From a virus: a stretch of 26,816 bases of DNA. Made by a program: the position numbers and the translations under genes. Shown one piece after another: positions 6,372-9,600 of this stretch. The stretch covers positions 1 to 26,816 of IMG/VR virus record IMGVR_UViG_3300004095_000012. The stretch is one strand, 5' to 3'. Under the pieces are notes generated by a model, which saw only the letters and a list, made by a program, of their open reading frames with translations, was not told the origin of the DNA and did no database searches. Each line of letters opens with the position of its first letter. Positions within the stretch are counted from its first letter, which is position 1.

Positions 6372-7031
6372 GAGTTCGAACTCTGTTTTTCTATTTCTTT
6401 ATCTCTCTGCATTTTAGGGAGAGCGACTCCTTTCCGGACTTGAGACCGGCAACTGGTAGCATTACTAAAGAAATTTGTGGTATTTGAAAAGCTTTTGTTC
6501 CGGAATTTGTTCTTTCCTCAACGGGACTCGGCATGGAGCCAAGTTTACCGTCCAGTCTGTGTTTACTAAAGCAAAGGATCAAAGCTGTATGTAAGTTTTT
6601 GGCTCCCCTTATGAAAATACGTCTACTAACATACCAACAGACAACTCAACGTATCTCTCCCACGGATTATACCTACAACGCGGGAACTTAATTTATATGA
6701 CTAGAAAACCTCATTCGTTTTCACGGAGATTTATCTTACAGGCTACACGTTCACTCGGCCGAATGCTTCGCTATCACCTATCGCGGGAGTCCTTTTGCAT
6801 ATCAGACTTGCGCCTAGTCAAATTTTTAAAATGTACTATCAAAGATCAATTCTTATTCTTTTAATATAGTGACTGAATAAGGAAGTGGCAACTAGAAAAT
6901 TTGTAAGTCTTTTTGTCCTGATAACTTGAAGCGTCCCTCATTATGTATCAGTTTTGTTATGACTTACGACGAACCGGTTCCATACATACAGCCTTTCGAA
7001 CAGCTGTAGAGAGGGTTTTACCGATTTCTGT
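6331..7031 (-). ncRNA. candidate large structured noncoding RNA (~700 nt)
   Basis: The 740 bp between the beta-barrel gene and the nucleotidyltransferase gene hold no credible CDS. A perfect late box TATAAATA (7037-7044) and a strong terminator define a transcript of about 700 nt on the minus strand. Pairings seen by eye: TACAGC/GCTGTA hairpin (6987-7008), GTAAGTC/GACTTAC long-range helix (6903-6909 with 6961-6967), GAAAAC/GTTTTC hairpin (6704-6722), and GGCTCC/GGAGCC (6601-6606 with 6535-6540). It is more GC-rich than the flanks. Length, phage setting and a tRNA and tmRNA nearby recall ornate phage RNAs such as GOLLD or ROOL, but I cannot confirm a family. It is not recognisably RNase P RNA, tmRNA or a group I intron. 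Boundaries are predicted. Confidence 0.68.
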
Positions 7032-7036
7032 GAATT

Positions 7037-7716: not shown

Positions 7717-8790
7717 TTACTTGATAAATGTAAAGGCAGCTGCGGTTGAAAGCAAAAGCAATACCCAAACACAAAGTGTTGAATAATATGTCCAAAGACT
7801 TGTCCCAAAATAGCGTTTACCAATAAGAACACATTCATGAAGCGGGGAGATAAGGTATCCGGCGTAATCCAGAGCAAAGAACCAGAGAAGATATTCTTTA
7901 CCAAAGATCGTCGACATAAGGACGGTTAGTGCAGCGAACTTTCCATCAGATCCCATACTATACGAGGCGATAAATGTAATAATACTAATTACAATAAAAC
8001 CAACAGATGTGTGCATTGATACACCAAGATTCTTTACAGACGATTCAATCCAATCATGATGCTCTTGCATATAATCAGATAAGAAGAAGACAATACCAAT
8101 TATCCAAATTGTATTCCAGTTAATATAGCTATTAAGTTTTTTGAGATTAAAATTCTTTGTTAGAATCAGATAATAAGCCATTAGCGTACCAAATACCGTA
8201 AACACAGCCAATGGACCTTCACCACCTAGAAGAATGTACCCAACGATAGCTAGAAGAAACGGTACAACGTTCTTAATAAATCCAAGAACATTAAATTTAG
8301 GTCTTTCGGTAATCTCTACTTCCTCTTCTTTAACATTAAACCAAATATAATAACCAATAAAGAGAGCAGAAACAGCAATTAACGGCCAGATCATTCCTAA
8401 CCAAGCTGTATAACCGATAGAGAAAGCAGCCATCGGTAAAATAACAGGCTTCTCTAACGGTGACCACATATAGAAATGATGGGTAGTTAAGAAATCAACA
8501 ATTCCTAGCTTTTTTCGACTTTCTGAATTCTCAGATTCATGATTAGTACAGTTACAATTTGATGTAGCTGTATCAAGAATTCCTGCTGATACTGTTGCTC
8601 TTCCTTCAATAGGAAGGATACCTGATACAAACGAAAGTAGAGATATAACTACTCGATTACTCTTAAACTTTGACTTTAGATATCCGTAAATATCCTGGAA
8701 GATGCCATGCTCTTTAATAGTTCCAGATACAATCATGATCGCAATGAGCACGAATAGATATATCTCGTCTTCTAGATATGACCAATTCAT
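7717..8790 (-). CDS. inner-membrane transporter, DUF401 / ion-transporter-like
   Basis: 357 aa with about 9-10 hydrophobic segments. Landmarks: SGILPIEGRATVSAGILDT (56-73), like the 'LLPxPGGAxLSAP' hairpin motif of DUF401 proteins in the ion transporter (CitMHS-like) superfamily; IASYSMGSDGKFAALTVL (274-291), which fits the second re-entrant region; and ISPLHECVLIGKRYFGTSL (314-332), matching 'SPxHxCLxLTxxYF'. Inserted after the first hairpin is a short Cys/His loop CNCTNHES (79-86). The family probably moves organic anions or ions; substrate unknown. It is followed by the beta-barrel gene and preceded by the tmRNA. This is unusual phage cargo. Confidence 0.65.
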   Translation of the reverse strand: MNWSYLEDEIYLFVLIAIMIVSGTIKEHGIFQDIYGYLKSKFKSNRVVISLLSFVSGILPIEGRATVSAGILDTATSNCNCTNHESENSESRKKLGIVDFLTTHHFYMWSPLEKPVILPMAAFSIGYTAWLGMIWPLIAVSALFIGYYIWFNVKEEEVEITERPKFNVLGFIKNVVPFLLAIVGYILLGGEGPLAVFTVFGTLMAYYLILTKNFNLKKLNSYINWNTIWIIGIVFFLSDYMQEHHDWIESSVKNLGVSMHTSVGFIVISIITFIASYSMGSDGKFAALTVLMSTIFGKEYLLWFFALDYAGYLISPLHECVLIGKRYFGTSLWTYYSTLCVWVLLLLSTAAAFTFIK

Positions 8791-8825: not shown

Positions 8826-8916
8826 AAAAAAAACTACAACTAGAGCGAATTCAATCTTTCGGAGGATTACTAGTACCTCGTTCTAAACAGGAATTCTACC
8901 TGCTCTCTAATTGTAG
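8826..8916 (-). terminator. terminator of the tmRNA gene, branched
   Basis: Outer arms CTACAATTAGAG (8905-8916) and CTCTAGTTGTAG (8834-8845) form 12 pairs with one G-U, followed by eight U. The 59-nt interior contains further hairpins (CAGG/CCTG, GAGG/CCTC). It begins 5 nt after the tmRNA CCA end. Confidence 0.75.
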
Positions 8917-8938
8917 TAAATTGGTGGAGGCGAGGGGA

Positions 8939-9144
8939 CACTTAATCTCTAGCTTTCGCTAAAGCGTGGACTATATCTTCACCCTCGCGGGTGTTGGATG
9001 CTCAAGCCGGTACTCCGGTAGTCTCTGCACCTTCCTATTTCTAGGCTCGGCTCAGTATTGCCATGTTGCTTTCGCAATTTAGGTTCCACTGAATTCTTCC
9101 AATTTATACATTATCTATTGCTAGATAAGTCGACCTGCTTGTTG
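8939..9144 (-). other. group I intron inserted in the tmRNA T-loop
   Basis: A 206-nt self-splicing-type intron without ORF. P1: exon UCGAU pairs with internal guide GUCGA, leaving the G-U at the 5' splice site; the intron ends in G. P2 is a 7-bp hairpin (TTATCTA/TAGATAA). P5-like TTGC-GAAA-GCAA and CCTA-GAAA-TAGG hairpins follow. The P7 strands are AGACTA and TAGTC within GCAGAGACTA and AAGATATAGTCC, a classic group I core string. P7.1-like CCGG-AGTA-CCGG suggests an IA-type intron. P8 is CACCC-GCGA-GGGTG and P9 is CTTTAGC-GAAA-GCTAGAG. Removing it restores AGGGG-TTCGATT-CCCCT, a perfect T-arm. T-loop introns are known in some bacterial ssrA genes. Confidence 0.93.
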
Positions 9145-9371
9145 ATCGAACCCCTGTGTTTATACTGTTACGTTAATATCTCTACACGCTTAGATAAGTT
9201 TAGCATTTGATTGACTACAGGCTGCTATGGCTTACCGACCTATCTTTTTTAGTCTGCCTATTATAGTGAAGAGTCTACAACCACCCCCTGTACTATGTTT
9301 TCTAAGTATCACAGGTACTACTTTAACCTATTATTATTTCCAAAAGCTTAATAGGATCTGCTTCTGGTTCC

Positions 9372-9479
9372 TTAGGCTGCGATAGCGAGGGGAGCCATTT
9401 CGTCACAGAGACAAAACTCTGTAATTGTGTTGGCTGCCTTCTTTACCTTGGCAAGGATTGCGGAGACCTTAGTCTTTGC
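9372..9479 (-). other. tmRNA tag reading frame, 35 codons
   Basis: It starts at the GCA resume codon 9477-9479, 11 nt after pseudoknot 1, and ends at TAA 9372-9374. The peptide starts AKTKVSAIL, has a basic middle (KVKKAA) and ends APLAIAA, close to the usual hydrophobic-Ala-Ala degron. Most bacterial tags are about 8-20 residues, so 35 is long. A 6-bp hairpin (ACAGAG/CTCTGT) lies inside the frame. A later resume codon would shorten it, but spacing from the pseudoknot favours the first GCA. Confidence 0.7.
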
Positions 9480-9576
9480 ATTTATGTTTTAATCAGCTTT
9501 TATAGTGGCCAACTGATTAACCACTGCGTGCAATACTAATTTCGAGTATAAGTCGAAGCCAGTACGCCCCCAAAAT

Positions 9577-9584
9577 TATTTATC
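9577..9584 (-). promoter_or_regulatory. late-type promoter of tmRNA
   Basis: GATAAATA, then ATTTT, then the first G of tmRNA (9571). The sixth base after the box is the expected T4 late +1, so transcription may start directly at the mature 5' end, bypassing RNase P. Confidence 0.6.
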
Positions 9585-9600
9585 AAAGAACAAAAATTAT

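Follow-up and report, generated by a model that had tools for sequence, protein, structure and literature searches.

The window, the whole 26,816-nt stretch of DNA analyzed here, comes from an uncultured, T4-like phage and carries a complete phage tmRNA (ssrA) gene on its minus strand (9571..8922). Direct reading, the Rfam tmRNA model (RF00023), and intronless homologues together define it as a standard, non-permuted gene of the intron form, encoding a precursor of 650 nt that would measure 444 nt once spliced. The 5′ exon (9145..9571, minus strand) holds the 5′ half of the tRNA-like domain, P2, pseudoknot 1 (PK1), the tag open reading frame, a downstream pseudoknot region, the T-stem 5′ strand, and T-loop nucleotides 1–6. 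The sequence of the 3′ exon (8922..8938, minus strand) supplies T-loop nucleotide 7, the T-stem 3′ strand CCCCT, the acceptor 3′ strand CGCCTCC, A73, and CCA. GGGGGCG (9571-9565) pairs with CGCCTCC (8932-8926) in a 7-bp acceptor stem, followed by A73 (8925) and CCA (8924-8922), and AGGGG (9155-9151) pairs with CCCCT (8937-8933) in a 5-bp T-stem. Acceptor and T-stems close on CCA, as in the tRNA-like domain of tmRNA (RF00023), and the T-loop lies in two parts, TTCGAT (9150-9145) and T (8938), with 206 nt (9144..8939) between them. A first-pass annotation of this DNA had pointed out the tmRNA ends, PK1, the resume codon, and a T-stem whose strands stand 206 nt apart; we re-read every one of these landmarks and found each coordinate exact.

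The 206-nt insert (8939..9144, minus strand) is a group I intron lacking an open reading frame, as assigned by the Rfam model Intron_gpI (RF00028) and by alleles with an empty site. It begins after T-loop U6 (subsite 7) and ends in G. The RF00028 match spans the full length of the model (9171-8947, 77.7 bits, E 2e-18) and recovers P3–P9. The 5′ exon UCGAU (9149-9145) and an internal guide GUCGA (9134-9130) form P1 (9130..9149, minus strand), in which U9145 stands opposite G9134 at the 5′ splice site; at its other end, the intron closes with G8939. A U·G pair is usual at group I 5′ splice sites, and the P3–P9 core, the U·G pair in P1, and the terminal G together identify the element as group I, in line with the first-pass reading of the T-loop insert. 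The catalytic core P3–P8 (8967..9105, minus strand) was delimited by Rfam alignment and RNAalifold covariation; across ten related viral cores, RNAalifold recovered P3, P4, P5, P6, and P7.1, and 10 of the 23 pairs show double compensatory changes. Covariation in P8 is visible by eye, the automatic alignment being off by a gap at this helix. Removal of the intron yields a perfect 5-bp T-stem and a 7-nt loop with the junction TTCGAT|T (predicted spliced junction, TTCGATTCCCC), as was first proposed, and empty alleles carry TTCGACT at the same place. The intron thus sits between T-loop nucleotides 6 and 7, with a junction that rebuilds the T-arm, which is the arrangement of intron-form tmRNA genes.

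The covariance search proposed at the outset gave a clear result for the intron and a marginal one for its host gene. With the intron in place, RF00023 matched 9563-9143 at E 9e-17 and 45.5 bits, below its curated cut-off of 47 bits. With the 3′ end displaced by the intron, the alignment is forced to end inside the intron, which accounts for the 1.5-bit shortfall; intronless homologues score 90–115 bits, above the cut-off. The RF00028 and RF00023 matches occupy adjoining, overlapping positions, and the intron is confirmed far beyond chance, with the tmRNA half and the intron half independently supported. A permuted two-piece tmRNA (RF04321) was considered and rejected, as the gene reads in order from 5′ to 3′ and RF04321 reached just 23 bits versus 47. 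ARAGORN reported no tmRNA in the window and none on 16 in-silico spliced variants, a silence that is uninformative because the program also missed the intronless homologues scoring 90–115 bits with RF00023.

PK1 (9489..9525, minus strand) consists of AGTGG/CCACT and TTAATCAG/CTGATTAA, evident in the sequence and in homologues, where compensatory substitutions, T-A to C-G and G-C to C-G among them, preserve both PK1 and P2. Downstream lies the tag reading frame (9372..9479, minus strand), which opens at the resume codon GCA (9479) and encodes 35 amino acids, AKTKVSAILAKVKKAANTITEFCLCDEMAPLAIAA, before the stop TAA. Between the window and a related allele (L014), the tag differs at seven bases, all seven in third codon positions, with zero amino-acid changes, a pattern indicative of strong purifying selection on the 35-residue tag. 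A PK1 upstream of the resume codon followed by a short tag frame under selection is the layout of tmRNA. The tag measures 33–35 amino acids across all alleles, the commonest length among tmRNAs being 10 (PMC11915505). Its end, LAIAA, departs from the commonest form, LAA, which we count against the tmRNA reading.

Upstream of the gene, GATAAATA (9577..9584, minus strand) differs by a single base from the T4 late-promoter box TATAAATA and lies 5 nt ahead of the G that begins the tmRNA. A GATAAATA/AATAAATA box occurs 5–6 nt upstream in six of eight distinct alleles and is absent from the other two (L002, L312). TATAAATA boxes precede tail genes within the window, making T4-type late promoters plausible for this phage. 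The first-pass proposal that the tmRNA is driven by a late promoter is weak, given the two alleles that lack the box; the motif at most hints at late control. Nearly all eight distinct alleles also carry a TGWTCTTT element upstream (about 9583-9592 in the window) that possibly resembles the boxA antitermination element; a similar motif also precedes some tRNAs in two related contigs (L010, L011). Immediately 3′ of the gene, a branched, cloverleaf-like hairpin is followed by eight T (8826..8918, minus strand); its region (8836-8924) has a fold z-score of −2.8, and it is probably a terminator or a decayed tRNA.

Viral contigs searched for the 5′ end of the window tmRNA yielded both filled and empty forms. 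The intron is present in the window, in L005 (identical), L012, L002, L006, and L008, and partially in L004, and it is absent from L010, L013, L015, L017, L014, L011, and L018. Empty alleles read AGGGG-TTCGACT-CCCCT and filled alleles AGGGG-TTCGAT|T-CCCCT; the base at −1 is U only where the intron is present, so that the U needed for the U·G pair accompanies the intron, as would be expected from co-conversion or from selection for that pair. Among four filled alleles, all six pairs show higher identity in the intron (94.2–99.0%) than in the exons (76.7–87.8%), and on the exon tree the distribution of the intron calls for three or more gains or losses. L008 and L010 form the cleanest pair with and without the intron: their 3,468 upstream bases and their 5′ exons are identical (3.9 kb), and they differ in the intron and the 3′ flank. 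This could be a recent intron gain or an assembly chimera, the latter because L008 ends 33 nt past the gene. While the high intron identity could come in part from constraint on the ribozyme core rather than from transfer, the empty sites make transfer a simpler reading than constraint alone. The comparison of alleles thus supports the view that the intron is a mobile passenger, passed from phage to phage by a route that we infer. The earlier suggestion that it moves between hosts holds between phages, where empty alleles occur and the intron is more conserved than the exons; movement into a bacterial host is conjectural.

Two of the relatives, L006 (5141-5735) and L312 (about 1389-2020), carry a further insertion of about 600 nt, within PK1. 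A stem of some 19 bp bounds it, with arms that pair in each contig despite sequence differences between the two (GTGCTGGTATTCCCTTTA/TAAAGGGAGTATCAGCAC; TGTATTGGCGTTCTCTTTA/TAAAGAGAGCGTCAATACA), and its loop holds an Endonuclease VII-type HNH gene (PF02945) preceded in both by an identical TATAAATA-bearing hairpin. Rfam intron models gave no match at this insertion in either contig, and a literature search for anything similar to the HNH-bearing hairpin in PK1 returned nothing. By analogy with the excised spacers of 23S rRNA, the insertion may be cut out to give a fragmented tmRNA. Separately, a small ORF with an HNH-like motif, found by reading, lies just downstream of the tmRNA in L002, L010, and L011, in both intron-plus and intron-minus contexts, and is absent beside the window tmRNA.

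Introns in phage tmRNA genes extend beyond this group. Among the matches listed from IMG/VR, about 30 other viral contigs combine signatures of a tmRNA and of an intron, the latter at subsite 3 or 7; they include T4-like phages, as judged by the presence of gp23 (G007 and G009 among them). At subsite 7, a 61-kb record (L169) has an intron scoring 33 bits adjoining its tmRNA. Further subsite-7 calls in L156 (64 kb), L180 (275 kb), and L407 are motif-based, as RF00028 did not recover these introns at their genes; the RF00028 matches for G003 and G036 sit several kb away from the tmRNA. In both L156 and L180, an antisense ORF within the T-loop intron matches LAGLIDADG, over the Pfam cut-off in L180 and below it in L156, and some phage tmRNA introns thus probably carry LAGLIDADG genes. 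Subsite 3 (TT|CGAxT) is occupied in L137, L158, L176, L178, L182, L200, L202, L236, and about fourteen more, several of which score above both Rfam cut-offs.

We compared the window core with these introns and with bacterial ones. With a model made from viral tmRNA introns and a single psbA intron, three phage introns outside it (tRNA, terminase) scored 127–144 bits and bacterial ssrA introns 17–44 bits. Since the intron-core tree is unrooted on the question of origin, with branching from phage-gene versus bacterial ssrA introns unsettled, we used identity ranking alone; a bacterial ssrA origin of the window intron is possible. The 302.9-kb genome of Klebsiella phage Muenster (L300) contains an unannotated group I intron at about 570-811, in an apparent tRNA with anticodon CAT, and its core is close to those of phage tmRNA introns. 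A broader and distinctly tentative proposal is that mobile RNA elements land repeatedly in the tmRNA gene of T4-like phages, with phages carrying T-loop introns between genomes and possibly into bacterial ssrA; the HNH-bearing tmRNAs would then need splicing and also fragmenting, perhaps by RNase III cleavage of the hairpin, before ribosome rescue.

For the window, the explanation that we hold with high confidence is a phage-encoded, standard-order tmRNA with a small group I intron, devoid of an endonuclease gene, inserted into its T-loop at subsite 7. In this scheme, the spliced 444-nt RNA would rescue ribosomes with host SmpB, and the intron moves between phages. Splicing, charging, and tagging by trans-translation are here inferred from gene structure. 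In the predicted course of events, the intron folds once the precursor has been transcribed, and its guide GUCGA pairs with the 5′ exon UCGAU; guanosine would attack after U9145, and U9145 would then be joined to U8938. This would rebuild the AGGGG-UUCGAUU-CCCCU T-arm, required for alanine charging and for EF-Tu/SmpB binding, and the mature tmRNA would act with host SmpB during infection, adding its 35-residue tag. The anatomy of the gene thus predicts that rescue competence hinges on splicing.

The insert may be a selfish passenger without regulatory meaning, maintained just because phage tmRNA T-loops are convenient and recurrent targets, and we consider this somewhat more likely than not: empty alleles are common, the intron has no ORF, and introns recur at two subsites in other phages. 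This reading is compatible with a spliced, functional tmRNA and denies just a regulatory role, for which our data offer no support either. It is improbable, by contrast, that the intron no longer splices efficiently and that the gene makes a decoy or inert RNA that, for example, titrates SmpB. There is a precedent in phage DS6A, whose tmRNA is a tRNA-like domain only, a form that inhibits host tmRNA (PMC11915505, PMC4131195), but in the window all core helices, the P1 U·G pair, and the terminal G are intact, compensatory pairs are kept in the intron alleles, and the tag frame is under apparent strong purifying selection that a decoy would not need.

Evidence on the genomic setting bears out the first-pass description of a phage-borne copy. 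Three relatives (G015, G016, and G017; 193, 199, and 177 kb) combine a T4-type gp23 capsid gene, a terminase gene, and a tmRNA, and three intronless alleles lie in such records. Among the hits listed, gp23 of a relative is 31–34% identical to cyanophage proteins and at most 34% identical to those of known phages, which places these relatives on what appears to be a distant branch of the T4 superfamily. No close relative of the window tmRNA was found among 50,697 phage records and 72,556 plasmids, and tblastn with a window protein found no relative. SmpB was not found in any of 16 related records, and host SmpB would therefore be used. That the gene is instead a bacterial chromosomal ssrA (host DNA, a prophage attachment site, or a misassembly) is very improbable and was rejected: phages and islands often integrate at ssrA and leave fragments, and the source is metagenomic, but the same locus is identical over more than 14 kb in a 76.3-kb viral contig (L005), the 177–199-kb relatives hold the tmRNA inside genomes with gp23 and terminase, the gene is complete rather than an att fragment, smpB is missing from the related records, and the neighboring genes match phage families. 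Also phage-borne in the window are genes for an Hsp20 chaperone and a DUF401/CitMHS-like membrane transporter (1599-2084 and 7717-8790 (minus), respectively). Near the tmRNA/tRNA region, a structured noncoding RNA of about 125–140 nt (6890-7034, minus strand) recurs in L004, L006, L010, L011, L018, and L312; 12 of its 33 predicted pairs show double compensatory changes across seven sequences, and it has no Rfam match.

Intron-form bacterial tmRNA genes were reportedly first described by Williams in 2002. As the first-pass annotation stated, T-loop introns are known in bacterial ssrA; 883 intron-form tmRNA genes are now known from 21 phyla, with T-loop subsite 7 as the main site (PMC11915505), and the Clostridium botulinum intron has been reported to self-splice (PMC2729099). 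The window intron resembles these in its gene, its subsite (loop nucleotides 6/7), a −1 U paired to an internal G, and a terminal G, and it lacks an endonuclease gene, as do about 96% of bacterial intron-form tmRNAs. Unlike them, it is phage-borne, and it is shorter (206 nt versus a 293-nt mean); its guide is GGTCGAC where the Bacillota set mostly has GTCGCC, and its core is nearer the closest viral subsite-3 cores (78–80% identity over 115–137 columns) than the bacterial ssrA introns compared (at most 72%).

Phage tmRNAs are themselves well documented, with 79 unique sequences in one survey (PMC11915505) and 402 tmRNA-bearing phages in another (PMC9004378), including the mycobacteriophage C1 cluster, Bacillus phage G, pelagiphages, and the OM43 phage Melnitz (PMC11915505, PMC9004378). 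The window tmRNA is like them in being complete, phage-encoded, without a phage SmpB found, and dependent on host factors; those described in the consulted parts of these papers are of standard or permuted form, with no intron form among them (PMC11915505, PMC9004378), and the main text of PMC11915505 makes no mention of phage intron-form tmRNA. One survey relied on ARAGORN (PMC9004378), and since ARAGORN finds none of the genes studied here and Rfam is marginal, counts of phage tmRNAs are probably too low. With introns of other phage genes (Vibrio phage terminase, cyanophage psbA, and the tRNA of Klebsiella phage Muenster) the window intron shares core sequence and P7.1, whereas their target genes and P1 guides differ. 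What is new here, as far as the consulted parts of these sources extend, is the T-loop intron form in phage tmRNA together with a population of filled and empty alleles; the kind of intron is already known in bacteria. Two known things, phage-encoded tmRNA and the T-loop intron form, are thereby joined that the same sources do not describe together. Of the four known subsites, two recurrently hold introns in phage tmRNAs, and closely related phages with intron-plus and intron-minus alleles lend themselves as a natural test both of intron mobility and of whether ribosome rescue during infection depends on RNA splicing.
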